Shown here one piece after another: positions 1 through 24,042 of a stretch of 24,154 nucleotides of DNA; the stretch's first letter is position 1, and every line of letters starts with the position of its first letter. The DNA is taken from positions 1 to 24,154 of the IMG/VR virus record IMGVR_UViG_3300018077_000100; one strand, 5' to 3'. The position numbers and the translations under genes were made by a program. The DNA comes from a virus. The notes below the pieces were generated by a model. That model was not told where the DNA came from, ran no database searches, and saw only the letters and a list, made by a program, of their open reading frames with translations.

Positions 1-625
1 CTGGCTTCACCTTGGGAGTAGCGGCTTGGGCAAGCCGCTTCATGAGGGAGAGGATGGTCGGGCTTAACTGAGCCGCCGCAGTAACCGCTGAGATTGCGGA
101 AGCAAAGGTCCCCTGAGTAACGGTGGTGGTACCAAAAACCAGGCGGTCCCGATTGTCCGACTGCCAGGTGTCTCTCTGGGCGTTGGTCGCAGTCTCGAAA
201 GCAACGTTTGCCACCTGCCCGAGACCTGTAGTGCAGGCATCTCTCAACATCTTCTGCGACCACTCGCGGAGCTGGACTTTTCCGGCGTCCCGCAGCTCAA
301 CGACGGATTTCTGAACATCCCAGTCATCCACTGCAACCGCGTGTCTTAAAACATCGACAATCAGCGTGTCAGACCGGGAATTGAGGCGTTCCTCGTTACC
401 CTTGAGGGTGGCGTTCCCAGTGACACCGGCACCTACCAACTCGTTGACCAAGGCGATGGTTATACGGTCGCCCTTTTTCCGGGTTAAATCCTCCTTGATC
501 TGGAAGATCGCCGCTTCGTCGGTACCGAAATACCGTTTGTAACGGGACATGCGGACGTAATCCCGAAAATACGAATCGTCCCACTGTTCCGGGGTTAAAT
601 TCGGTTGAGCAGAGGTATACGCCAT
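1..625 (-). CDS. Major capsid protein, N4-gp56 family (C-terminal part beyond the window)
   Basis: This is the main shell protein of the virion. The frame opens at an ATG at 625 (MAYTSAQPNL...) and stays open to base 1, so about 208 N-terminal residues are visible and the stop lies outside. The stretch RYFGTDEAAIFQIKEDL, then KKGDRITIALVNELVGAG, GNATLKGNEERLNSRSD and VDVLRHAVAVDDW, is the pattern I know from the N4-gp56/DUF4043 capsid family. A GGAG lies seven bases upstream of the ATG. It is the last visible gene of the leftward late operon and follows the scaffold gene, the usual scaffold-then-capsid order. The recognition is from memory of the family, without a search. Confidence 0.85.
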   Translation of the reverse strand, partial: MAYTSAQPNLTPEQWDDSYFRDYVRMSRYKRYFGTDEAAIFQIKEDLTRKKGDRITIALVNELVGAGVTGNATLKGNEERLNSRSDTLIVDVLRHAVAVDDWDVQKSVVELRDAGKVQLREWSQKMLRDACTTGLGQVANVAFETATNAQRDTWQSDNRDRLVFGTTTVTQGTFASAISAVTAAAQLSPTILSLMKRLAQAATPKVKP

Positions 626-786: not shown

Positions 787-1698
787 TCAGTGCTTCAGGA
801 TGTCCACCATTGAGGTCGGGCCGCCCCACGCGACTTTATTCATCCCCTTGCTCGGCGCATCAGAAAGTGACGGCGGTAGTGCATCCCTTTCCTTCTGAAG
901 GTTCTCCGCTTTTTCCTTCAGTTCAGCCTCCAGCTTGATGCGGGTTTCCTTCTCGATCCTGGCCCTCAATTCATCAATGCTGCCGGCCTCTTTCAGCTCC
1001 AGGTTGTTCTTGCCGGTTGTATAGGCAAACTCGGCTGGGTCCGCCGCGGACATCCATTGCTGGTAAAGACCAGGCATGGTTTTCAGCAATTCCCCGAAAA
1101 CCGCTGTTTTTTCGTCAAAATCCTTATATTTCTGCCGAGCGATAGACTCAGCCATGTTGAGCCGGGAGGTGACGATCTCAGCCCGGAATTTATCGGTTTC
1201 GGCCCTGATCTCAGCTTGTTGCTTGGTGAAAGCGGCCTCAGGATCGTCCCAGAAGGTCTTGGCGGGCTCGGGGGTGACTGGCTGTGCTACCCCAGCCTTT
1301 ACATATTCGCCAGCCGCTACTCTGCGTTCCCATTCCTGGCGCTTGCCCCGTTCTTCTTGAGCCGCTTTTAGAAACGCCCTTTCCTTCTCGGTAAAGTCTT
1401 GCTGCGGTGCAGCAAGCTTGGCTTCCTTGACGGGTTCCTTAACCGGCTCTTTGACAGGTTCCTTGGCTGGTTCATCGACCTTGGAGTACTGTCCGGTCTC
1501 TGGGTCTCGAACCCGGCCTTGGGCAGCTTGTTCCTTATCCCGGTGAGCCTGTTTCCTTGAGACCGGTCTTTCGACCTCAGGCGTCTCTACTTGAACCGGT
1601 TCCTTGGTTTCTACCGTCTCCTTGATTTCAGCCTGGACTGGCTCCTTCGATACTGGCTTATCCGAAAGAATGTCATCCATACTTAATTGCTCACGCAT
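787..1698 (-). CDS. Capsid assembly scaffolding protein
   Basis: Probable scaffold that guides capsid assembly and is then removed. The 303 residues are highly charged and mostly helical. The first 100 residues are acidic and low in complexity, with a tandem EPVK run around residues 76-92. A long coiled-coil-like region follows (roughly 160-270, rich in E, K, A and R). The tail has a short SLSDAPS motif near residues 277-283, of a type common in phage scaffolds. It lies directly upstream of the capsid gene. The start at 1698 has AAGGAG seven bases upstream and overlaps the methyltransferase stop by eight bases. Scaffolds diverge quickly, so the call rests on position and composition. Confidence 0.75.
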   Translation of the reverse strand: MREQLSMDDILSDKPVSKEPVQAEIKETVETKEPVQVETPEVERPVSRKQAHRDKEQAAQGRVRDPETGQYSKVDEPAKEPVKEPVKEPVKEAKLAAPQQDFTEKERAFLKAAQEERGKRQEWERRVAAGEYVKAGVAQPVTPEPAKTFWDDPEAAFTKQQAEIRAETDKFRAEIVTSRLNMAESIARQKYKDFDEKTAVFGELLKTMPGLYQQWMSAADPAEFAYTTGKNNLELKEAGSIDELRARIEKETRIKLEAELKEKAENLQKERDALPPSLSDAPSKGMNKVAWGGPTSMVDILKH

Positions 1699-2443
1699 GT
1701 TCAGTCTCCTTCTCGCTCTTGACCCTGGCGGCGGTAATCAACTTCGCGTACTTGGACTGGGTTGGGAACACAAAGGGTTGTATTGTAACCCTTTGTGCCA
1801 TCGCAAACACGTTTGCTTCTTCCGCCTGATATCTAAACCTGCTTGTAGGTGGGCACCCAATACTGGTTCCATCCCGTAAAACAAGTTTGCAATCAAGCAG
1901 CTTAAATCCGTTCGCGGCGTAGAAATCGTGATACCACGTCGGATTCAGATTATAGAACCCATGATTCCCCCAGTTGAATGGGTTCTCATGGATGATGTGG
2001 CCTCCTTGCTTTACCAGTCCAGCCATGTTCATTATTGCCTGGGCAATGTTGAAGCAATGCTCAACCGTTCCAACATCCAGAACGACATCATATTTCTGCC
2101 TCAGAGACTTAGAAACATTTATTGATTCTTTCCATCCTATTGGCTGGTTAAGGTCCAAAATTATCTCACATCCGCGTTCCTGCACGATGTCGTAGACATC
2201 CAGTTCGCAATCCATGGCTTTAAATACCGAATGAGCATCAGGAATGTTTCTCTGTTGAAGACCATGACGCTTACAGATTTCCAGAGAGTCTTCCCGGTAC
2301 TCCCACAGGGCTCTATGCACCCCTACCAAGTTCACAATCATTTCTTCCGGAGCTATCAAATCCGGGTAACCAAAACTGGCAACATGCATCCCTGGCTTCA
2401 AGATACCGACCAGAGCCGCAGTCTGAGTTACGGAGAGGGCCAT
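1691..2443 (-). CDS. Class I SAM-dependent methyltransferase
   Basis: A 250-residue protein resembling small-molecule or sugar methyltransferases. The clearest signature is YDVVLDVGTVEHCFN (residues 118-132), similar to the acidic strand-4 motif of Methyltransf_11-type proteins, followed by a GGHIIHENPFN strand and PTWYHDFYAANGF. The usual glycine-rich SAM loop near the N-terminus is not obvious (ASFGYPDLIAPEE at 22-34), so SAM binding is inferred from the fold pattern. It is the last gene of the sugar cassette, 15 bases after the radical SAM gene, and overlaps the scaffold start. A likely role is methylating the cassette product. No strong Shine-Dalgarno is seen, so translation may depend on the upstream gene. 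Confidence 0.65.
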   Translation of the reverse strand: MALSVTQTAALVGILKPGMHVASFGYPDLIAPEEMIVNLVGVHRALWEYREDSLEICKRHGLQQRNIPDAHSVFKAMDCELDVYDIVQERGCEIILDLNQPIGWKESINVSKSLRQKYDVVLDVGTVEHCFNIAQAIMNMAGLVKQGGHIIHENPFNWGNHGFYNLNPTWYHDFYAANGFKLLDCKLVLRDGTSIGCPPTSRFRYQAEEANVFAMAQRVTIQPFVFPTQSKYAKLITAARVKSEKETEHA

Positions 2444-2458
2444 CAGGGCATGTCCGGC

Positions 2459-3634
2459 TTAGGATTGTTTGGCGCTGACATACTTGAAGTATTTCAAGGG
2501 CGTTTTGGTCTGAATGGCCGGAATAATAACTGGGGCATCGTAATTTCTGCCACGGCAGTGGTCGCAGGACTCGATATAGGTCTTTCCCCTCAGAAACCGC
2601 CGAATCTCTTCGCGTCCAGCTTCGGAAACCACGAGATAATCTTCCGTGTAGTCTGGAACGGCGTGAAGCTTGAACGCATTAGCCGAGAACGGACAGCGGT
2701 AGAGCCTGCCATCGGCAAGAGTGGCGAGGTTCTTCGCGCAGCAGCTCGTGAAGATTGCTTCGTTCTCCTTGATTGTGCGTTCGTGCTTTTCAAGCGCCCC
2801 GCATTCCGTCCAGCCGTTCGCTTTTTCAGAGACATAGGCTATTCCTCTCTTCTCAAGTTGCTCGATCAGGGGTTGAAGCTTTCTAGACTGTAAGTATTCG
2901 GTGATGAAAAACCTGACTTTCTCATGCTGTAACGAGGGCCACTGTTCCTCTCTCGGCATGATCGTCGCATTGGTGAAGATGGCGACTTTCTTGATGTTCT
3001 CCATGGAGGTCAGTTTCTCGACCACCAGATGCAGTTCCTTATTCATGAACGGCTCGCCACCGATCACCCGTACCTCGTAGATTTCATCCATCTTGGAGCA
3101 GAACGAGTCTATAGTTGAAAGCATCTCGTTTAAGTCGGCGTTCTCCGGCTTTTCGTAATAGGCCATGAGGTTGGAACAATCCTTGCACTTCATCGAGCAG
3201 CGTTCAGTAATAATGAGGTCCACACTCTGCACCGTCAGCAACTCGGGTCTAATGTAGTTCGCGTGATGGTGAAGACAGGTGCGAATCAGGTACTTAATAT
3301 GCTCGATTGAATAACGACTTGATTGATTGGAGCCGTTGATGCTTTGGAACTCGATCTCTGAAATATCGAAGTCTTTCAGCACTTCCCCGCAGGACTTCCA
3401 TCCGGTGTAACCCATATCTCTCAAAGGTCTAATCATGTCTTGGATGTTGGGAGAAGTGACATAGAAGTAACGAGCTTGGGGATAGCGTTCCTTGAGTTCG
3501 GTCGTTCGGATAACTTCCGTGCCAGCCACCGGCCCCTTGATGCGGTCATCCATGAAGCAGTCAACAACGATCCCCCGCTCATGACAGGCATGAAGAGTGG
3601 CCTCCCCGACGATGCCGGCACCAAAAATAATCAT
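2459..3634 (-). CDS. Radical SAM/SPASM protein with N-terminal Rossmann-like segment
   Basis: The 391-residue protein has two parts. Residues 1-90 start with MIIFGAGIVGEATL and continue to CFMDDR, a Rossmann-like nucleotide or sugar-nucleotide binding segment seen at the front of several polysaccharide enzymes. Residues 135-360 form a radical SAM enzyme: CSMKCKDC (C146, C150, C153) would hold the 4Fe-4S cluster, GGEP (192-195) is the SAM-binding motif, and late cysteines (C298, C299, C314, C357, C360) look like a SPASM auxiliary-cluster region. Substrate is unknown: a sugar, a nucleotide sugar or a peptide are all possible. The ATG overlaps the stop of a 59-residue gene (ATGA), implying coupled translation. 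Confidence 0.8.
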   Translation of the reverse strand: MIIFGAGIVGEATLHACHERGIVVDCFMDDRIKGPVAGTEVIRTTELKERYPQARYFYVTSPNIQDMIRPLRDMGYTGWKSCGEVLKDFDISEIEFQSINGSNQSSRYSIEHIKYLIRTCLHHHANYIRPELLTVQSVDLIITERCSMKCKDCSNLMAYYEKPENADLNEMLSTIDSFCSKMDEIYEVRVIGGEPFMNKELHLVVEKLTSMENIKKVAIFTNATIMPREEQWPSLQHEKVRFFITEYLQSRKLQPLIEQLEKRGIAYVSEKANGWTECGALEKHERTIKENEAIFTSCCAKNLATLADGRLYRCPFSANAFKLHAVPDYTEDYLVVSEAGREEIRRFLRGKTYIESCDHCRGRNYDAPVIIPAIQTKTPLKYFKYVSAKQS

Positions 3635-3810
3635 AGAAATTTCTTAAACAACATTGGGCGATGGAATTCTTCCAAAATTTCTCTTGTCTGACGATCCCGC
3701 CATTCTTGTTTCATACGAGCAACCTCAATTCTTTCCAGAGCATCCAGTTCGCGCTCAATACGCCTTATTCTCAGCCAAGGGAACAGAAATTCCATAATTG
3801 AATTTTTCAT
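3631..3810 (-). CDS. 59-residue charged helical protein coupled to GT2 and radical SAM genes
   Basis: This small gene fills the space between the glycosyltransferase and the radical SAM gene exactly. Its ATG overlaps the glycosyltransferase stop (ATGA at 3807-3810), and its TGA overlaps the radical SAM start (ATGA at 3631-3634). The protein starts MKNSIMEFLFPWLRIRRIE, a hydrophobic then basic N-terminus. It continues as a charged helix (residues 16-50, rich in E and R) and ends FKKFL. It has no cysteine. I do not recognise a family. It could be a small partner or membrane-edge tether for its neighbours, or a peptide substrate of the radical SAM enzyme. Precise junctions on both sides support a real gene. 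Confidence 0.65.
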   Translation of the reverse strand: MKNSIMEFLFPWLRIRRIERELDALERIEVARMKQEWRDRQTREILEEFHRPMLFKKFL

Positions 3811-4646
3811 GGATAGAGCCTCTTGAAAACATCATTCATCGGCTCGCCAGTGTGGTCGCAGATACGCATGAAGTAAAGTATCGCGTGGTAGAGTTTAGAA
3901 TTGTCTATTGCGGAGTCAATCTGCTCCTTGGAATAAAAGGGTTGGAGAAACCGTTCCACGTATTTCAAGGCTTCCAGGAAACCAAAAAGGCCGGACTTGT
4001 TTCCCCCGTCAAAGGTCGTGGTGAGGGATTCCGCTCGCTTACGATTATGATACACAATGTCGGAGATAAAACGCACTTTCTTGCAGCGCATCAAGTAGTC
4101 AAAGTTAAGAGCCATATCCTCCGCCGTGGAGAGATCGGGAAACCGACCGATAAGCGCCCTCCTGAAAAGCTTCGCCCAACAGCCGGACAAAATCTGGTAA
4201 TGTCTCGGCTCCCTGAGATTGCTCATTGCGATCTGAGCGACTTCCTTGACATCCAAAGTCTCGCTCGAATGCTCGACTGTCATCTCGAATGTTCCAAATT
4301 TCCGGAAAGAACCGACTACCAGATCAACCCCGTCAATCACTTTCACCATCGCTCCGATGGCATGAGACTCAAGATAATCATCGGCATCCACGAACATGAC
4401 GAATTCGCCGGTTGCCAGATCGAGTCCGGTATTGCGCGCGGCGGATACCCCGCGATGCAGGTGATGGCTGATAAAAAGCCTGTCATCCCCCCTTGGAATG
4501 GCTCCCGAGCTATTATCGGTCGAGCCGTCGTTCACGACGATAACTTCAATATCCAGATAATCCTGATCGAGAATGCTCTGGATTGACTGCGCAATCCATT
4601 GAGCGGCGTTGTATGCCGGAACGATTATGCTAACTGTCGGGACCAT
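3807..4646 (-). CDS. GT-A fold glycosyltransferase, family 2
   Basis: Transfers a sugar from a nucleotide donor, probably the product of the genes just upstream. VSIIVPAYNAA, then EVIVVNDGSTDNS, then GVSAARNTGLDLATGEFVMF and the metal-binding VDADD are the standard GT2 motifs in order. At 279 residues it is a single catalytic domain with no membrane segments, so it would act on the cytoplasmic side. I chose the ATG at 4646 because AAGGA lies five bases before it. An in-frame ATG at 4661 would add five residues but lacks a good ribosome site. Either start overlaps the end of the E1-beta gene. Confidence 0.85.
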   Translation of the reverse strand: MVPTVSIIVPAYNAAQWIAQSIQSILDQDYLDIEVIVVNDGSTDNSSGAIPRGDDRLFISHHLHRGVSAARNTGLDLATGEFVMFVDADDYLESHAIGAMVKVIDGVDLVVGSFRKFGTFEMTVEHSSETLDVKEVAQIAMSNLREPRHYQILSGCWAKLFRRALIGRFPDLSTAEDMALNFDYLMRCKKVRFISDIVYHNRKRAESLTTTFDGGNKSGLFGFLEALKYVERFLQPFYSKEQIDSAIDNSKLYHAILYFMRICDHTGEPMNDVFKRLYP

Positions 4647-5340
4647 AGAATTCCTTGACATGGCGTTGCGAGGCCCCGCAGAGCTTGATGTATTCAGGAG
4701 TCACTACGCGGGTTCCTTCTTTTGCGTTGAACAGTCTGCGATGAATGGTGTAGAGAGTAGGCTTATTGCCCTCAATGGATTCTCTGAGCATGTCACCCGC
4801 TTCTTGCGGAGTCTGTGGAACGCAGACGTTCCAGCCCTCGAAGCGACTAAACCAGAACGTGATGTCCTTGCTGTGTTGTGCTCCCTGTCCCGAGCCTATC
4901 CCACGACCTTCCTGAGCAATGATAGTAATCGGTAGTTTGTAGCCCTTCTTCCACCAGATCGGAATATGATTGAAGAGAGCGTTACAACCACACAAAAGAA
5001 AATCTAATCTCACGTGGAAGAGCACAACGCGCTTGCCAGCCAGGGCCAGTCCCATCGCGCTTGAATTCATCAGTTCCTCAGATACGCTATAAGTGATGAA
5101 GCGTTCGGGATGTTTTTCATACAAACCAATAGTCAGGCCGGCAAATCCATATTTGATAAGCTGGCCGCCAAGAACGAGATTGGGATGCTTCTCCAGCATT
5201 TCATGAAGAGTTCTGTTGATCTCGCCAGCGAACGTCCCGGCAGGACGAGCAGCATTATCGGAATTACTTATCAAGCCTTCTCTCAGTGCTTTCTTATATA
5301 TTTCTCTGGAAATTAACTCTGCGTTCAATGCTTTATTCAT
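4630..5340 (-). CDS. E1-beta-like thiamine diphosphate enzyme subunit (pyrimidine-binding domain)
   Basis: The 236 residues match the pyrimidine-binding half of pyruvate dehydrogenase/transketolase-type enzymes. A glutamate in YSVSEELMNSSAMGLALAG (E89 or E90) fits the residue that activates the cofactor, and GQGAQHSKD (151-159) is typical of E1-beta. It continues with VCVPQTPQEAGDMLRESI and a PTLYTIHRRLF strand, then stops. Full E1-beta proteins run about 325-340 residues with a further C-terminal domain, which is missing here. It should pair with the E1-alpha-like product upstream, whose stop overlaps this ATG. Position in a nucleotide-sugar operon suggests a carbon-carbon bond step on a sugar rather than central metabolism. 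Confidence 0.75.
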   Translation of the reverse strand: MNKALNAELISREIYKKALREGLISNSDNAARPAGTFAGEINRTLHEMLEKHPNLVLGGQLIKYGFAGLTIGLYEKHPERFITYSVSEELMNSSAMGLALAGKRVVLFHVRLDFLLCGCNALFNHIPIWWKKGYKLPITIIAQEGRGIGSGQGAQHSKDITFWFSRFEGWNVCVPQTPQEAGDMLRESIEGNKPTLYTIHRRLFNAKEGTRVVTPEYIKLCGASQRHVKEFYGPDS

Positions 5341-6068
5341 GCAATCACTTCCTTTGGCAACAGGTTCGCCATGTAGATATGCTGCCCCTCCAGCTTGACC
5401 TTCGCCTCATGAAACGACGGTTTTCCGGAACGCGCCATCTGTAAGGCACCTTGCACATTGGAGCTGATCCTCAAACCAAACGCAGCCGCCCTCGGAATAA
5501 GCGGAGTCGCTTGCCTTTCTTCAATAAGCGAATCAACTGACATTGAATTATTTTCGACTATAAAAGCCATAGGAAGCTTGTTCAGCACCGCCCAATTCGC
5601 CGTTTCCCAATAAACTCCCGCTTCCGTCCCGGCATCACCCACGACACAAACAACAATCGCTTTCGACTTGTCCATCTTGAGCGCGTAGGCAGTTCCGGCG
5701 GCAACGCCTACCAAGCCTCCCACGATAGCTGAGGCATGAAAGTTGATTGAGCCGTCAGAAATGCCCTGGGAGCCGGCGAAGCCTCCATTAACGCCGGTAG
5801 GCAAGCCGCGAATCTCATCCCACAGCTTTTCTTCCGAACCTCCCTTCGCCAGATAATGCCCATGGTTCCGATGATGACTGAACAAAAAGTCCTCCGGCCG
5901 GATGTATTCATAGATTTCAGCGGCGACCTTTTCGTGACCTAAACATAGGTGAACTGGAACAAAAATATCCTTCATGTTGTCGAGCAGACGCTGCTCGAAC
6001 TGCCTGACCCGCTCGGCGAAGATTTCCCGGCTCAAGCTGCGCGGGGCATTGCTGAGAGTGAGTGCCAC
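5337..6068 (-). CDS. E1-alpha-like thiamine diphosphate-binding subunit
   Basis: This 243-residue protein is the diphosphate-binding half of a two-subunit thiamine enzyme. Recognisable E1-alpha features are GHEKVAAEIYEYI, FSHHRNHGHYLAKGG, a GFAGSQGISD segment and the cofactor motif GDAGTEAGVYWETAN running to VENN (residues 144-174). The motif reads GDA where GDG is usual. E1-alpha proteins are generally well over 300 residues, so this is a compact version. Translation begins at a GTG at 6068 inside the end of the epimerase gene (37-base overlap), and the stop overlaps the E1-beta ATG, giving the 1:1 coupled synthesis expected of a heteromeric enzyme. The true substrate cannot be read from the sequence. 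Confidence 0.75.
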   Translation of the reverse strand: MALTLSNAPRSLSREIFAERVRQFEQRLLDNMKDIFVPVHLCLGHEKVAAEIYEYIRPEDFLFSHHRNHGHYLAKGGSEEKLWDEIRGLPTGVNGGFAGSQGISDGSINFHASAIVGGLVGVAAGTAYALKMDKSKAIVVCVVGDAGTEAGVYWETANWAVLNKLPMAFIVENNSMSVDSLIEERQATPLIPRAAAFGLRISSNVQGALQMARSGKPSFHEAKVKLEGQHIYMANLLPKEVIA

Positions 6069-6964
6069 TGAGGTTCGTCCTTTAGTTTTCCTGCCCGATA
6101 TTTTGCGATGATTTCATCTATCGCATCCGATACAGTTTTCTTGGGACTGAAGCCTGCCGCCAGCAGCTTGTCCGAGTTAAGTCGATAGGAACGCGGATCG
6201 TTGGAGGGCATTGCAACGATCCTTGTACCAACTTTGTTAGCCACCATTCTTGCGATGTCCTTGATCTTCAAGTTCTCGAATCCGGCATTGAGAATTCCAT
6301 AGAGTCCCGGTCTTAACAGAGCCCACAGGTAGAAATCGGTCATGTCCTCAATGTGAATGTTGGGTCGGTACTGATCTCCCCCGTTAAGCCTAATGATGCC
6401 TTTTGAGAGGGCTTGGAAGGTGAAGCTGTTGACCATCGTATCGAGTCTCATACGGGGGGAAAACCCGCAAACCGTGGCAGGACGGATGATGAGGACTCCC
6501 ATCCTCGCGGCATAGGACAACACCGCCAGTTCAGCGACCATCTTGGTCTTGTTGTATTCGGAGAGGGGCACAAGCGGAGTTTCTTCAGTCACTTCCGGCG
6601 CATCAGAGATCCCGTAGACGCTCCCGGAACTGGCGTAGATGAACTGCTGCACCCCTTCTCGTGCGGCTCTATCGGCAAGTTGAGCGGTTGCAAGCGCATT
6701 GATCTCCCAAGTGAGTTTTGGATCAACTTCTCCAGCCGGATCATTGGCAACCGCTGCCAGATGGATGATTGCGTCAGTCGCCCCTAGAGGAAAACTCTGA
6801 TCTCGGATGTCGCCCTTGATGATCTTGAGACGTTCATGCGGCTCAAGATAATTCCCAAACCAAAATAAATCTAAAACCCTGACATGATGGCCCGCATCGA
6901 GTAACTTCGGAACCAGGACGCTACCCACATACCCACCCCCCCCGCTACAAAGCACCCGCGCCAT
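6032..6964 (-). CDS. NAD-dependent sugar epimerase/dehydratase (extended SDR)
   Basis: A 310-residue extended short-chain dehydrogenase that should act on a nucleotide-activated sugar. The NAD loop is GGGGYVGS (residues 8-15), an acidic residue ends the second strand (RVLDLF), SSGSVYG (112-118) holds the catalytic serine region and YNKTK (137-141) is the YxxxK pair. RPATVCGFSPRMRLD and the RPNIHIEDM strand are typical of the UDP-glucose 4-epimerase-like group. It follows the nucleotidyltransferase with a 20-base overlap, so in the heptose analogy it fills the place of the ADP-heptose epimerase or of a later modifier. The final 30 residues are probably a loose tail overlapping the next gene. 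Confidence 0.85.
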   Translation of the reverse strand: MARVLCSGGGGYVGSVLVPKLLDAGHHVRVLDLFWFGNYLEPHERLKIIKGDIRDQSFPLGATDAIIHLAAVANDPAGEVDPKLTWEINALATAQLADRAAREGVQQFIYASSGSVYGISDAPEVTEETPLVPLSEYNKTKMVAELAVLSYAARMGVLIIRPATVCGFSPRMRLDTMVNSFTFQALSKGIIRLNGGDQYRPNIHIEDMTDFYLWALLRPGLYGILNAGFENLKIKDIARMVANKVGTRIVAMPSNDPRSYRLNSDKLLAAGFSPKKTVSDAIDEIIAKYRAGKLKDEPQWHSLSAMPRAA

Positions 6965-7355
6965 TGCGTATCCTTTCTATGATTGCGCTCGTTGTCTGGA
7001 TATTTGGCTTGGTAAACAGAATTTCAATATCATGCTCGATGCAGTATTTCACTTCAGCGTCCAGTAGCCCTTTTATCCGGTAATCGTTTCCCTTACAGAA
7101 GACTTGAGGACGAAATCGTTGAAGAGCCTGTATTGAGGATTCAACCAGCATGACGTTTGAGACGCAGGATAATCCCAGAAGCATTTCCATGCGCTCGTTT
7201 TCGGGAATGACCGGCTTGCGTTTTTCCTTCTCGGCAACGGTATCCATCGTGAGTCCAACCACCAGCCGGTCTCCCATCGAGCGGGCTTGCTCAAGATGAC
7301 GCAGATGAGCCACATGGATTAGATCAAAAATTCCGTTAGCGAGAACGATCTTCAC
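6945..7355 (-). CDS. Nucleotidyltransferase, cytidylyltransferase/HldE C-terminal-like
   Basis: Joins a sugar phosphate to a nucleotide. The 136 residues match the single-domain cytidylyltransferase-like fold: NGIFDLIHVAHLRHLEQAR at the start, RLVVGLTMD, ENERMEMLLGLSCV, then the C-terminal TTSAIIERIR resembling the TTxxIIxxI end of heptose 1-phosphate adenylyltransferases. The family signature is normally HxGH; here it reads HVAH (H14-H17) with alanine for glycine, which might affect activity. Translation starts at GTG, with the GTGA overlapping the stop of the SIS-domain gene. Free-standing adenylyltransferases of this size occur where HldE is split. Whether the donor is ATP, CTP or GTP is unknown. 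Confidence 0.8.
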   Translation of the reverse strand: MKIVLANGIFDLIHVAHLRHLEQARSMGDRLVVGLTMDTVAEKEKRKPVIPENERMEMLLGLSCVSNVMLVESSIQALQRFRPQVFCKGNDYRIKGLLDAEVKYCIEHDIEILFTKPNIQTTSAIIERIRNGAGAL

Positions 7356-7750
7356 TTCTTCAACTCCCGCATCAAGTCATGACCTAACTTTATTTGCGCT
7401 TCCTCGGAAGCCTGCATGTCCAAGCCCTGCTCTGCGCCAAACACACGCTCAATGTCCATACCAATCAGCTTGGCGGCTTCGACTGCATTGAGGATGTTTT
7501 TCGACTTACCCGACCCGGAGAGCGCAATCAGAAGGTCTCCGGGCTTTCCCACGACGAGGAGCCACTTGGAGAATACATGTTCGTAGCCATGATCGTTGGC
7601 CGTGGCGGTGAGGGTGGATGGGTCGAGAGTATAAGCCTTAATCCCGCAGGCGAGGAGATCGTTTTGAATGTGAAGTGAATTGGCCCAAGATCCGCCATTC
7701 CCGATAATGAAAACGTGCTTGGCTACCCTGACCCGCTCGACAAGGGTCAT
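7352..7750 (-). CDS. SIS-domain phosphosugar isomerase, GmhA-like (short)
   Basis: A sugar isomerase or phosphosugar-binding protein. FIIGNGGSWANSLHIQNDL (residues 14-32) matches the phosphoheptose isomerase signature, and ALSGSGKSKNILNAVEAAK (76-94) is the second phosphate-binding loop. GmhA is about 190 residues. This one is 132 and lacks the N-terminal helix that helps build the tetramer, so it may need a partner or bind rather than isomerise. The ATG overlaps the kinase stop, and the stop overlaps the nucleotidyltransferase start. The order kinase, isomerase, nucleotidyltransferase strongly suggests a heptose-like activation pathway. Confidence 0.8.
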   Translation of the reverse strand: MTLVERVRVAKHVFIIGNGGSWANSLHIQNDLLACGIKAYTLDPSTLTATANDHGYEHVFSKWLLVVGKPGDLLIALSGSGKSKNILNAVEAAKLIGMDIERVFGAEQGLDMQASEEAQIKLGHDLMRELKK

Positions 7751-8628
7751 GGTTTTCCTTGAGGAAACGGATGGTTTTCCTTCAGGAACTCGATCAGGCT
7801 GTCCTTTGTCACCGGAGCCTTATTACCCGGTATCTTGCATTTCAACGCTCCCGCCGCATTACCAATAACCAAGAGATCATCCACGTTCCCGGTCTTCGCC
7901 ATCAGAGCGGTGACTGCGAAAAACGCATCCCCCGCACCCAAAGTATCTATCGCATGATTCAGAAACGCCGGCTGATGAATGAACTGTCCATCCTGATAAC
8001 CATAGGCACCGTGATGACCGTGGGTGACGATGAACTTGTTGCAACGATTCTGCGAGAGCTTGTCCATGACATTGGCGATATACCCATGCCTGTCAGAAGC
8101 GGCAAGCCTTGCTTCGGGTTCGTCGATCACGATGTAATCAGCTCTTGGGTACTTGGTGATGAGATTGAACCCGATATTGGAGGAATTGCTCTGCGCTGAA
8201 ACCGCGACGAACGGCTTCTTGCAGAGCTTTTCGATCATTTCATTGGTGACTCTACCGTGGCCGAAGTCAGTGACGACCACGACATCATAATCCCCGTAGA
8301 AGTCGGTATTCTCAAGGAAAACGTCATCATAATGAACCTCGAATAGTTTTCTCAAATCGTACTTCTCAACCATTCGCACCTTTCGTACCGGAACCATGCT
8401 GGTGCAGACATCGACCTTCTTGCAGAAAGACCGCGCATGATTGGCGGCAGCCATGACCCCGCCCTCGAACACCTCCTTTTCATGGTATCTCACCGGGATG
8501 AGGTATTCCTTGAATGACTTGCCCAAGGGAGTGACGTAGTGATACTCGTCCACGATGTTGTCCCCCACAAAAAGAACCCGGTAGTCCTTCACCGAGCCAA
8601 TCAAAGCTAAAGCAGTTTCAAGACTCAC
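7747..8628 (-). CDS. PfkB-family sugar kinase, HldE N-terminal/RfaE1-like
   Basis: Phosphorylates a sugar, probably a phosphosugar passed on by the GmhA-like neighbour. The 293-residue protein shows RVLFVGDNIVDEYHYV at the start, a GGVMAAANHA region like the GGAxNxA substrate loop of the family, and the catalytic DTLGAGDAFFA (aspartate within residues 228-234) that defines PfkB kinases. Length fits the kinase half of HldE. The start is GTG at 8628, overlapping the previous gene by eleven bases. It opens the sugar cassette. The sugar it accepts is not known; D-glycero-D-manno-heptose 7-phosphate is an inference from the neighbours. Confidence 0.85.
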   Translation of the reverse strand: MSLETALALIGSVKDYRVLFVGDNIVDEYHYVTPLGKSFKEYLIPVRYHEKEVFEGGVMAAANHARSFCKKVDVCTSMVPVRKVRMVEKYDLRKLFEVHYDDVFLENTDFYGDYDVVVVTDFGHGRVTNEMIEKLCKKPFVAVSAQSNSSNIGFNLITKYPRADYIVIDEPEARLAASDRHGYIANVMDKLSQNRCNKFIVTHGHHGAYGYQDGQFIHQPAFLNHAIDTLGAGDAFFAVTALMAKTGNVDDLLVIGNAAGALKCKIPGNKAPVTKDSLIEFLKENHPFPQGKP

Positions 8629-20456: not shown

Positions 20457-20813
20457 TCAGCGCCAGTTGGTAGTATCCCAATTTCCCTTTCCATGATTGC
20501 ATGGGGAACATAAAACCTGAAGATTATCGAGGCTCAGAGCTAGATGCGGGTGCGTCTTTCGCGGCAGGATATGGTCCACGTTGATTCTAATCCCGTCTTT
20601 AGGTGTGGCGCCGCAGCAGGCACAACGTGCGCCATCGCGTTTTATGGCTTCCATACGAACCTTGCGCCACTCGAAAGATTGAAGGAATCCTTCACGTCTT
20701 GAGCGTCTTTCGGCTACCTTAGCGCGTCTAAGCGCCTTCACCGCCTCACGGTTAGTTGCGAATCGCCCGAGTCCTTTCCTCAGGGCTCTCTTTATGAATA
20801 TTCCTTTACTCAT
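20457..20813 (-). CDS. HNH endonuclease
   Basis: The 118-residue protein starts MSKGIFIKRALRKGLGRFAT and ends with an HNH domain: CACCGATPKDGIRINVDHIL, a LDNLQVLCSPCN segment and KGNW. CxxC pairs bind zinc, the VDH pair supplies catalytic histidine and the second CxxC follows. HNH nucleases of this type serve packaging or homing in phages. I set the start at 20813; the same frame could be read from 21014, but that extension runs through two intrinsic terminators and a G-tract and is low in complexity. It is the last gene of the leftward run from 22452. Confidence 0.75.
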   Translation of the reverse strand: MSKGIFIKRALRKGLGRFATNREAVKALRRAKVAERRSRREGFLQSFEWRKVRMEAIKRDGARCACCGATPKDGIRINVDHILPRKTHPHLALSLDNLQVLCSPCNHGKGNWDTTNWR

Positions 20814-20838
20814 CTCTGAAAAACAAAGGGAAGGGAAA

Positions 20839-20861
20839 CCCCAAATCCCCCCCCTCCCCCC
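20839..20861 (-). other. G-tract cluster upstream of the HNH gene
   Basis: On the minus strand GGGGGG, A, GGGGGGGG, ATTT and GGGG follow in 23 bases. The spacing would allow a G-quadruplex in the RNA or DNA, 26 bases upstream of the HNH start. This could dampen translation or stop polymerase. Long single-base tracts are also prone to slippage and sequencing errors. Confidence 0.4.
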
Positions 20862-20913
20862 ATAAGATTTTAGGGTGAGGCGCGGCTGATTCCGCAAAGT
20901 CCAAAGGGAAGGG

Positions 20914-20944
20914 AAAGAAAAAGCCAGACGGTGGGCCGTCGAGC
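20914..20944 (-). terminator. Intrinsic terminator (second of two, minus strand)
   Basis: On the minus strand a stem GCTCGACGG pairs with CCGTCTGGC around a CCCA loop (one internal mismatch and one wobble), followed directly by TTTTTCTTT. It lies about 55 bases further along than the terminator at 20968-20989 and ends in the same T-run sequence. It would stop leftward transcription before the HNH gene at 20813. An alternative GAGC-GAAA-GCTC hairpin at 20941-20952 competes with the base of the stem. Confidence 0.55.
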
Positions 20945-20967
20945 TTTCGCTCTCCGTTCCGGCCCCC

Positions 20968-20989
20968 AAAGAAAAAGCCCCTAGAGGCT
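20968..20989 (-). terminator. Intrinsic terminator (first of two, minus strand)
   Basis: On the minus strand AGCCT pairs with GGGCT around a CTAG loop, followed by TTTTTCTTT. The stem is short with one wobble pair but the T-run is clear. It comes four bases after a folded RNA-like element and would end transcripts of the NinG run. The 12-base string AAAGAAAAAGCC (plus strand) marks the tails of both terminators, at 20914 and 20968. Confidence 0.5.
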
Positions 20990-20992
20990 GGT

Positions 20993-21062
20993 CTGGACGA
21001 TGCAGGAGTTGCACCGGCTCTTGCGAGCCACCAGCGACTAAGGGCTACTCCACCGCGTCCAA
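20993..21062 (-). ncRNA. Candidate structured RNA after the NinG gene
   Basis: On the minus strand TTGGACG (21062-21056) pairs with CGTCCAG (20999-20993), one end pair being a wobble. Inside, GGAGT pairs with ACTCC, and a central GGCTC-GCAA-GAGCC hairpin carries a GNRA-type loop. The 70-base span is followed by ACCA and then an intrinsic terminator, a layout resembling a short stable RNA or tRNA-like 3' end. A canonical tRNA does not fit, because D-arm and anticodon arm cannot be drawn. No gene overlaps it other than an unlikely N-terminal extension of the HNH frame near its edge. Confidence 0.4.
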
Positions 21063-21099: not shown

Positions 21100-21531
21100 T
21101 CAAGCCGAGTATTTAGCTATCAGGTCAAGAAAATCCTGGCGGGTGAACTTGACCGTCGTGCGCTTCAGTTCCATCAATCCATCAGCGATCCGTTGACCGT
21201 ATTGCCTGACCAATGCGAGGTAATACTCAGCCAGGTTCCCATGCTGCCAGCGGTTGCAATAACTACAAGCTCCGTGGACGTTATGCTCATCCCACCTCGT
21301 TGCCTGGTGCTGCCGGGGAATGAAATGTGAAGCTTCAAGCAGCGCATAACGATTGCAGGTATAGCACCGACCCATGCCTTTATCATCGGCATCGCGTCTA
21401 CGTATCCAAAGCGAGAAAACCTTATCGAGCTTTCGCCTGAGCGTGGATAACGCGACCTGCTTCACCCTGACGCCGGTTTTCTTCTTCGCCCGCTTCCATT
21501 CGTTCTTCAGGCTGTGGCGGTAGTTTTTCAT
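21100..21531 (-). CDS. ninG: NinG-family recombination protein
   Basis: The 143 residues match the lambda NinG (Rap) family, a structure-specific recombination nuclease. Signatures are LRRKLDKVFSLWIRRRDAD, CYTCNRYALLEASHFIPRQH, TRWDEHNVHGACSYCNRW and HGNLAEYYLALVRQYG, that is, two CxxC pairs around the family's HF and NVH motifs. The ATG lies six bases after the stop of the HTH gene. It is followed by a structured element and terminators, so it ends the main transcript of the leftward run. Lambda NinG is about 200 residues, so this is a short version. Confidence 0.85.
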   Translation of the reverse strand: MKNYRHSLKNEWKRAKKKTGVRVKQVALSTLRRKLDKVFSLWIRRRDADDKGMGRCYTCNRYALLEASHFIPRQHQATRWDEHNVHGACSYCNRWQHGNLAEYYLALVRQYGQRIADGLMELKRTTVKFTRQDFLDLIAKYSA

Positions 21532-21537
21532 CCGAAG

Positions 21538-21765
21538 TCATCCGTAAGCAATATGATTGTCCAAGGTGTAACGCACCACATGGGCTGTTCTGCCATCACG
21601 GACAGGGACTTCGGCTGGAACATGACTGATGTTAACGCCCAGTCTTTCCAATTCCCTTATTCTTTCCGACAGCCGGCAGATGCCCAAAGTGTTGAAGGCA
21701 TCTAACTGCGTTATACCTTGAGGATGTTGTTCAAGGAATTGCAATAACAGGCTATTTTGCGTCAT
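21538..21765 (-). CDS. Small helix-turn-helix phage protein
   Basis: The 75 residues read LLLQFLEQHPQGITQLDAFN then TLGICRLSERIRELERLGVN and VVRYTLDN, the pattern of a winged-helix family common in phages (TxxDAxxxLGIxRLSxRIxELxxxG). It probably binds DNA and may regulate early genes. The ATG overlaps the stop of a 40-residue membrane peptide gene, and GGGGG lies five bases upstream. NinG follows six bases after the stop. Confidence 0.75.
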   Translation of the reverse strand: MTQNSLLLQFLEQHPQGITQLDAFNTLGICRLSERIRELERLGVNISHVPAEVPVRDGRTAHVVRYTLDNHIAYG

Positions 21766-22453: not shown

Positions 22454-22482
22454 TTGACTCTCATAATCACACAGTGTATAAA
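22454..22482 (+). promoter_or_regulatory. Sigma70-like promoter for the rightward run
   Basis: TTGACT (22454-22459) and TATAAA (22477-22482) are 17 bases apart, five of six matches to consensus in each box. The HTH gene with AAGGAG and ATG at 22501 follows. It occupies the same bases as a leftward promoter on the other strand. Confidence 0.7.
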
Positions 22483-22491
22483 GCGAGTCAA
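22463..22491 (-). promoter_or_regulatory. Sigma70-like promoter for the leftward run, overlapping the rightward one
   Basis: On the minus strand TTGACT (22491-22486) and GATTAT (22468-22463) are 17 bases apart, five of six and four of six matches. The expected start is near 22456, only a few bases before the ATG at 22452. The two TTGACTC words form an inverted repeat (22454-22460 and 22485-22491), which may also be an operator. Confidence 0.6.
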
Positions 22492-22500
22492 GGAGATTTT

Positions 22501-22677
22501 ATGAGTGCTCGCGTATCGGCTGAAATGAAGATGGCGTTGCATATGGTGCAAGTTGATGGCAAAAGCCCCTATGAGGCGCAGGCGGCTACCGGGATTCATG
22601 CTGCCAGTATATACAGAGTATTGAAAACGTTGAGGAAAAAGAAACTCAAGAAAAAGGTTGACAAAGTTAGTGCATAA
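22501..22677 (+). CDS. Small helix-turn-helix protein, possible switch regulator
   Basis: The 58 residues begin MSARVSAEMKMALHMVQVDG and contain SPYEAQAATGIHAASIYRVL, a likely helix-turn-helix with recognition helix, followed by a very basic tail (KTLRKKKLKKKVDKVSA). AAGGAG lies five bases before the ATG; an in-frame ATG at 22402 would lie in the opposing gene. It is the first gene right of the overlapping promoters, the place where a phage switch repressor or activator often sits. Its DNA target is not known. Confidence 0.65.
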   Translation: MSARVSAEMKMALHMVQVDGKSPYEAQAATGIHAASIYRVLKTLRKKKLKKKVDKVSA

Positions 22678-22686
22678 TGTCACTAT
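22658..22686 (+). promoter_or_regulatory. Possible promoter before the 70-residue zinc protein
   Basis: A perfect TTGACA (22658-22663) is followed 17 bases later by CACTAT (22681-22686), which matches the -10 consensus poorly. It overlaps the end of the HTH gene and would start transcription just before the ATG at 22696. Treat it as weak. Confidence 0.25.
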
Positions 22687-22695
22687 GTTCTAATC

Positions 22696-22908
22696 ATGAT
22701 TTTCTGCCGCGACTGCCTGCACTACCGCCGCTACGACGAGCACTGGGCCTCGCTCGACGCCTGCGTTCATCCGAGCCTGCCGCAGAAGCGGGACCGGGTG
22801 CGGGGCGAGCCGATGGCGCACTACTGCTCCGATGTGCGTAGTTTCAGTGGTCCCTGTGGAGACGCAGGAAAGCTGTTTCAGGTGAAATCCGATGCTCCAG
22901 CCGCATAA
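22696..22908 (+). CDS. Small cysteine-rich zinc-type phage protein
   Basis: The 70 residues begin MIFCRDCLHYRRYDEHWASL, then ACVHP, HYCSDVRSF and GPCGDAGKLF. CxxC with two later Cys and a final CGxxGKxF pattern is a familiar small phage zinc protein of unknown role. No clear Shine-Dalgarno is visible at the ATG. It overlaps the next gene by 17 bases. Same strand and direction as its neighbours. Confidence 0.6.
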   Translation: MIFCRDCLHYRRYDEHWASLDACVHPSLPQKRDRVRGEPMAHYCSDVRSFSGPCGDAGKLFQVKSDAPAA

Positions 22909-23368
22909 GCGCGTTTCTCGTTCTGCTGGTGCTACCGCCGATTGGCCTGAGTGTGAGGAATTCTACAATCTTATGCAACGATACCGTCACGTTAATCAGC
23001 ACAATCATGAGGGCGAGGAACAAACCGTTCTTGCTTATGAAGAGGTCAAAGCGTGGCTTCGGCTTTCCGTTGGTATCGCGGATTTCACAATTCCCGCATC
23101 CATCCGCAAGCCGACCTCCGGCCCCTGCACCGAGTGTGGCAAAAATACCGAAAACAAGTATGGGGTCGAATGGATACACGACGAATGCAAAAACAGGCTG
23201 TATCGTGAACATGCTGAGGATATTCAGGCAAAGCCTGACATGGCCGAATCCGAGAAATTCCTCTACGCCGACGAGGACGAGCCTGATCGCTACCGGAGCG
23301 AGGATGAGCGGCTGGATTCAGAGCAGCATGACCAATGCGTAGATGGCAAATTCAAGGAGACAACATGA
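22892..23368 (+). CDS. 158-residue phage protein with CxxC and acidic tail
   Basis: Starts MLQPHKRVSRSAGATADWPE, with CEEFYNLMQRYRHV resembling a phage early protein. A CTECGKNTENKYGVEWIHDE segment followed by C gives a possible zinc site (CxxC near residues 79-82 and a later Cys). The C-terminal third is very acidic with many D and E residues (DEDEPDRYRSEDERLDSEQ). AGGTGA lies about seven bases upstream of the ATG. Its TGA overlaps the next ATG (ATGA). Function not known. Confidence 0.6.
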   Translation: MLQPHKRVSRSAGATADWPECEEFYNLMQRYRHVNQHNHEGEEQTVLAYEEVKAWLRLSVGIADFTIPASIRKPTSGPCTECGKNTENKYGVEWIHDECKNRLYREHAEDIQAKPDMAESEKFLYADEDEPDRYRSEDERLDSEQHDQCVDGKFKETT

Positions 23369-24042
23369 TTGCCTTTCACGGTAAAGCCGAAATCAAAGCT
23401 GAGTATCTTGCCCGTGTCAAGGCTCATGAGCTTGCAGATGAAATCATTCATGGCAAGTATTGGGAAAACGACAAAGGCTGCGCTATCGGTTGCACGGTTC
23501 ACTCTGATAGTCATGCGGCTTATGAGACCGAGCTGGGTATTCCGCTTATTCTCGCAAGGTTGGAAGATCGAATCTTTGAGGGCATGGCGAATGGTTCCTC
23601 GAAACAATTCCCGGCCCAATTTCTCTCCGCTATTCCAGTAGGAACGGATCTCTCTCTGGTATGGCCGCGCTTCGCGGTATGGCTCTTGGTAGACGAGAAG
23701 CATGGCGTTATCCGATTTATCAAGAAAGACAGTAAACAATGGATTGCAATTCATCGCGTGGCTGATCTTTACCGAGAGTTAAAGGATTGGGATAAGCGTG
23801 ATAAACAAGCATTTAAGAACATCGCCGTCTACGCCGCCGACGCCGCCGCTGCCGCCGCCGCCGCCGACGCCGCCTACGCCGCCGACGCCGCCTACGCCGT
23901 CTACGCCGCCGACGCCGCCGCCTCCGTCTACGCCGCCGCTGCCGCCGCCGCCGCCGACGCCGCCTACGCCGCCGACGCCGCCAGAAAATTACATTACAAA
24001 CATATGGCGGACAAGCTCATCGAATTGCTGGCGAACGCATGA
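23365..24042 (+). CDS. Phage protein with Ala-Asp/Tyr repeat tail
   Basis: I set the start at 23365 because AAGGAG lies five bases upstream; it overlaps the previous stop (ATGA). The 225-residue product has a folded N-terminal domain (IAFHGKAEIKAEYLARVKAH, GKYWENDKGCAIGCTVHSDS, YETELGIPLILARLEDRIFE) that I know from a widespread phage family, and a tail of about 55 residues built from AADAAYA-like units that ends ARKLHYKHMADKLIELLAN. Family members often carry such Ala-rich repeat tails of variable length. The tail would be a long helix. Function is unknown. The stop overlaps the next gene's ATG. Confidence 0.75.
   Translation: MIAFHGKAEIKAEYLARVKAHELADEIIHGKYWENDKGCAIGCTVHSDSHAAYETELGIPLILARLEDRIFEGMANGSSKQFPAQFLSAIPVGTDLSLVWPRFAVWLLVDEKHGVIRFIKKDSKQWIAIHRVADLYRELKDWDKRDKQAFKNIAVYAADAAAAAAAADAAYAADAAYAVYAADAAASVYAAAAAAAADAAYAADAARKLHYKHMADKLIELLANA
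23840..23982 (+). repeat. Two 53-base direct copies inside the Ala-rich tail
   Basis: The same 53 bases occur at 23840-23892 and 23930-23982, 90 bases (30 codons) apart, within GCC-rich DNA coding for Ala, Asp and Tyr. Recombination between the copies would remove or add exactly 30 residues in frame. Confidence 0.8.

Follow-up and report, generated by a model that had tools for sequence, protein, structure and literature searches.

The window analysed here, a stretch of 24,154 nucleotides that constitutes the entire virus record (an IMG/VR fragment), contains a junction from which genes are read in both directions and at which two promoters seem to be written on the same bases. The initial annotation described this junction as a compact bistable switch, raising the question of whether the overlap is a decision device or merely a tight arrangement of two promoters. 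The bases quoted in that annotation match the sequence exactly, and direct reading confirmed both the two opposite-facing promoters within 38 bp (22454-22491) and the coincidence of their -35 boxes with the two arms of an inverted TTGACTC repeat (Table 1). We consider it probable that overlapping promoters of the host-sigma70 type, packed into 48 bp, start an HTH-led run and an HNH/NinG run, and that the junction is a compact divergent control region of an ordinary kind.

Table 1. Features of the divergent junction, of the runs that flank it, and of comparable promoter pairs in environmental phages.
Feature	Position	Strand	Description
Rightward sigma70-type promoter	22454..22482	+	-35 TTGACT 22454-22459, 17-bp spacer, -10 TATAAA 22477-22482
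Leftward sigma70-type promoter	22463..22491	-	-35 TTGACT 22491-22486, 17-bp spacer, -10 GATTAT 22468-22463
Dyad	22454..22491	.	38 bp; perfect 7-bp arms, TTGACTC 22454-22460 and GAGTCAA 22485-22491
Alternative leftward promoter, TTCAGC-17-TAAAAT	22496..22524	-	rank 24, score 8.4; HNH leader would be ~36 nt
58-aa helix-turn-helix (HTH) protein	22501..22677	+	ATG start; leads rightward run; basic C-terminal helix
HNH-type endonuclease-like protein, 135 aa	22045..22452	-	CxxC...DHxDY...CxxC; phrog_2340 endonuclease, E 3e-5; heads leftward run
HTH_39 gene	21538-21765	-	leftward run
NinG gene	21100-21531	-	leftward run
Second HNH gene	20457-21014	-	leftward run; own promoter-like site at 21103-21074
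Symmetric overlapping divergent promoters	L058:3189-3229, L060:2302-2342		AGGATAGTTnCCTTGACA...TGTCAACCCCnCTATCCT
Diverged version of the L058/L060 promoters	L059:3084-3128, L062:3259-3303		

The 48 bp that separate the start codons of the HTH gene (ATG 22501, + strand) and the HNH gene (ATG 22452, - strand) are largely taken up by the promoter pair, with 20 bp common to both 29-bp promoter elements, the -10 boxes inside and the -35 boxes at the ends. As in other overlapping divergent promoters, both strands carry -35/-10 pairs with a spacing within 16-18 bp and share core bases; the leftward spacer moreover ends in TGT, an extended -10. A consensus scan reports the leftward promoter only, because the TATAAA of the rightward one lacks the T at position 6, and GATTAT agrees with the -10 consensus at four of six positions. 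Judged from the sequence only, the divergent starts are expected to lie ~33 bp apart. Rightward transcription is expected from ~22489, giving a leader of ~12 nt with the good Shine-Dalgarno (SD) sequence of the HTH gene, AAGGAG, at its extreme 5' end, and leftward transcription from ~22456, leaving the HNH mRNA leaderless or nearly so, with a weak SD (-3.5 kcal/mol). Leaderless phage mRNAs made from divergent repressor promoters are known, namely those of PY54 cI and cro (PMC4488713). Beside the junction, a TTGACA-17-CACTAT element with TG before the CACTAT (22658-22696) stops ~10 bp short of the ATG of a 70-aa gene at 22696; this gene lacks an SD and may be read from another leaderless transcript.

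Promoter strength was estimated with a simple sigma70 matrix built from E. coli promoter consensus frequencies (spacer 15-19, bonus for TGn). Among the 48,256 sites of the window, ranked with this E. coli consensus, which may not be that of the host, the rightward promoter came 4th and the leftward promoter 5th, with nearly equal scores (10.9 and 10.6). Shuffling the 48 bp gave two scores of at least 10.57 in 1 of 20,000 dinucleotide and 2 of 20,000 mononucleotide shuffles, and an opposite pair at that level within 40 bp arose in 3 of 300 whole-window shuffles, figures that are post hoc and optimistic since the threshold was taken from the observed scores. Overlapping opposite pairs scoring at least 9 were found 10 times in 655 kb of other phage DNA, against 4-8 times in block shuffles; weaker pairs are thus generally near chance level. 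Since such pairs are about as frequent as in shuffles, position matters, and the pair in the window scores above the level of this census and is located exactly at the divergent junction. Both sites are probably real promoters, judging from these scores and their placement.

The matrix also appears to select plausible promoters elsewhere in this phage. Of the ten sites that it ranks highest, five fall in non-coding DNA shortly before a gene on the same strand, a location shared by 2.3% of positions; shuffled non-coding regions matched this placement in 1 of 500 cases (with the gene set taken from our own reading of the ORF table). The best site in the window, TTGACA-17-TTTAAT (785-757, - strand), lies upstream of the capsid-position gene, and inspection by eye of the equivalent place in two related phages revealed TTGACA-17-TAAAAG (L009) and TCGACT-17-TATAAC (L010), so that the site seems to be kept in both. 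Given this site and its counterparts, the phage group appears to use sigma70-type promoters, including those with a -10 box lacking the final T, like TATAAA. In a positive control, the best site on each strand in the first 700 bases of the P22 immI record was Pant (14.5) or Pmnt (12.4). The leader of the capsid-position gene contains repeated GTCGCC...GGGCG units, and similar units occur in the relatives. In one of these, L010 (terminase 73% identical), we noted a divergent pair of ORFs judged from sequence to be CI-like (748-1179, - strand) and Cro-like (~1184-1384, + strand), whereas the phage in the window has no such pair at its junction. Elsewhere in the window, a long leftward block (1691-8628) of apparent sugar/nucleotide-type metabolic genes, named from their sequences (methyltransferase, radical-SAM-like, glycosyltransferase, transketolase-like halves, epimerase, nucleotidyltransferase, isomerase and kinase), looks like unusual cargo for a small phage, and a protein with long alanine-rich repeats of the DAAYAADAA type is encoded at 23335-24042 (+ strand; PHROG 3416, of unknown function, E 1.3e-5).

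The initial annotation was also right to place a small HTH gene directly to the right of the promoters. AlphaFold confidently models the fold (pLDDT 92.6) as an HTH of three helices, the last of them long and basic, and family matches are weak: HTH_23 at E 0.013 and 15.8 bits, below the cut-off of 24.6, and phrog_1368, a transcriptional regulator, at E 0.004. The P22_Cro and HTH_3 profiles did not match the protein, and a Foldseek search with the model returned no significant match in the PDB; resemblances to sigma region 4, KorA and ArdK stayed below threshold. On the left side, extending the HNH gene upstream to a GTG at 22683, which would place the dyad inside the gene, brought no further homology. 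Single-protein searches with the region's proteins in viral contigs, with two of them in genome contigs, and in phage and plasmid records yielded no relative covering the junction, and none of 11 loci found as TerL relatives contained the HNH or HTH gene. One locus, L094, matched 55 residues of the HNH protein and has no divergent junction of this kind. When a public collection of viruses was searched for the dyad with GGAG after it, the single match (L013) lacked the -10 boxes and was attributed to chance.

These observations suggest how the junction may work. The rightward promoter would start the HTH-led run and the leftward promoter the HNH/NinG run, and each would cover the core elements of the other, so that only one polymerase could be accommodated at a time and the two directions would compete. 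The proposal that RNA polymerase can occupy one promoter only is sound, because the core elements are shared; experiments cited in PMC4207663 indicate that two polymerases cannot both occupy fully overlapping promoters. It does not imply memory. The 58-aa protein probably regulates the region, in the simplest case by binding there and perhaps repressing its own and the neighbouring promoter. The overlap itself may be forced by genome compaction, with two 29-bp promoters placed in 48 bp. The exact elements and spacing, the ranks of 4 and 5, the rarity among shuffles, the placement of the best-scoring sites and the P22 control argue for this overlapping-promoter reading; the failure of the searches to find a homologous junction, the near-leaderless left start, the very short right leader, the alternative promoters and the weak HTH homology argue against it.

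By contrast, bistability, the further claim of the initial annotation, is unsupported, and what stands of the compact switch that it proposed is two good sigma70-type promoters heading divergent runs with an HTH gene adjacent. Polymerase exclusion alone is competition, without memory. According to PMC4207663, which summarises Bendtsen et al. 2011, a switch made of overlapping promoters needs unequal strengths and a regulator whose effects on them differ strongly. Here the scores are near equal, and a protein sitting on the symmetric dyad would mask the -35 boxes of both promoters equally; a switch would call for a regulator that affects the promoters in opposite senses, whereas the symmetric site would block both. 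A true bistable switch, in which the HTH protein or a host factor, bound to the dyad, would shut down one promoter while allowing or activating the other and so commit the phage to one run, is favoured by the HTH gene adjoining the promoters, by the existence of such circuits in pLS20 (PMC4207663) and by other phages with overlapping divergent promoters before P22_Cro-family genes. We nonetheless regard it as improbable: the window holds no second operator copy in the form of a further dyad arm, the arms lie 31 bp apart centre to centre, a long reach for a single dimer of so small a protein, and with an HNH protein heading the left run, no opposing regulators of the cI/Cro type were recognised in the window. 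Slighter still is the chance that the 58-aa HTH protein, lacking close relatives, occupies the two -35 arms and thereby shifts polymerase from one run to the other, the HNH/NinG run being leaderless.

Two other explanations dispense with one promoter or with both. Only one promoter may be real, the other arising because a promoter sequence is nearly palindromic, as happens in bidirectional promoters of bacteria, or the left run may start instead at the alternative site upstream. The imperfect -10 boxes are in line with such a reading, and from the alternative site the HNH leader would be of normal length; yet both spacers are 17 bp, both -35 boxes are TTGACT and both sites are among the five best in the window. 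Symmetry-driven bidirectional promoters, as defined by Warman et al. 2021 and described in PMC10268837, resemble the junction in that divergent starts arise from one stretch of DNA, but they start 7-25 bp apart through shared -10 elements, whereas the starts expected here fall outside this range and have separate -10 boxes. We judge the explanation with one real promoter unlikely, while giving it more weight than any reading of the dyad as a switch. Alternatively, TTGACTC/GAGTCAA could serve mainly as a protein operator or RNA hairpin, with promoter likeness secondary. The perfect 7-bp arms, about three helical turns apart, invite this view; however, the arms are the -35 boxes, correctly placed 17 bp from the -10 boxes, 7-bp inverted repeats occur in ~4-5% of 48-bp shuffles, and the TTGACTC heptamer by itself is common enough (4 in the window, 3.3 expected). 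Because opposite-facing promoters of equal length always mirror each other around a midpoint, an operator gains no independent support from the dyad: the symmetry beyond the given TTGAC boxes amounts to the T and the C (a chance of 1 in 16), and a looser symmetry further out stems from the two -10 boxes. Lengthened to 14 nt, the arms are 79% complementary. With so little added symmetry, and no further copy of the arm in the window, an operator is unnecessary. Folding of either strand was no better than that of shuffles (z 0.25 and -0.33), and the hairpin was rejected. We therefore hold an operator or hairpin origin to be very improbable and retain two overlapping promoters as the preferred reading.

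The overlapping divergent layout is already known, for example from Pant/Pmnt of P22 immI. In record X01916, the -35 and -10 boxes are annotated at 302-307 and 325-330 (+ strand) for arc-ant, and at 330-335 and 307-312 (- strand) for mnt. As at the junction, these divergent promoters overlap fully, with the -10 boxes inside, the -35 boxes at the ends and both spacers of 17 bp, and genes for small DNA-binding proteins are adjacent (arc 53 aa, mnt 83 aa). The P22 pair spans 34 bp, compared with 38 bp here, its leaders are longer, and no sequence relation between immI and the junction was found. The P22 regulators are ribbon-helix-helix proteins, unlike the HTH protein of the junction, and the work on the overlapping immI promoters reportedly dates from 1983. 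In the conjugation switch of pLS20, the divergent core promoters Pc and Pr coincide, with an extended -10 and an HTH regulator nearby, but one is several hundred fold stronger than the other and RcoLS20 acts on them in opposite ways, with looping in addition (PMC4207663), in contrast to the near-equal scores of the junction. A further comparison comes from environmental phages found via the second HNH gene, L058/L060 and L059/L062, which have overlapping divergent promoters right before genes of 53-55 aa; in L058, L060 and L059 these genes match the P22_Cro family. As at the junction, the opposite promoters overlap directly before a small HTH gene with a very short leader. In these phages, however, the -35 boxes are central and the -10 boxes outside, and the HTH family is different. 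Each of the four also has a further TGTCAA box a short way left of the promoters.

Taken together, these comparisons indicate that the junction leaves the picture drawn from P22 immI or pLS20 unchanged. Were the 58-aa HTH protein indeed to tip polymerase from one run to the other, the junction would be a phage switch pared down to two genes and 48 bp that works without CI or Cro. If both promoters fire, it would offer a neat natural instance, in an uncultured phage, of polymerases competing for the same promoter DNA, and an inexpensive way to test whether overlap is regulatory in its own right.
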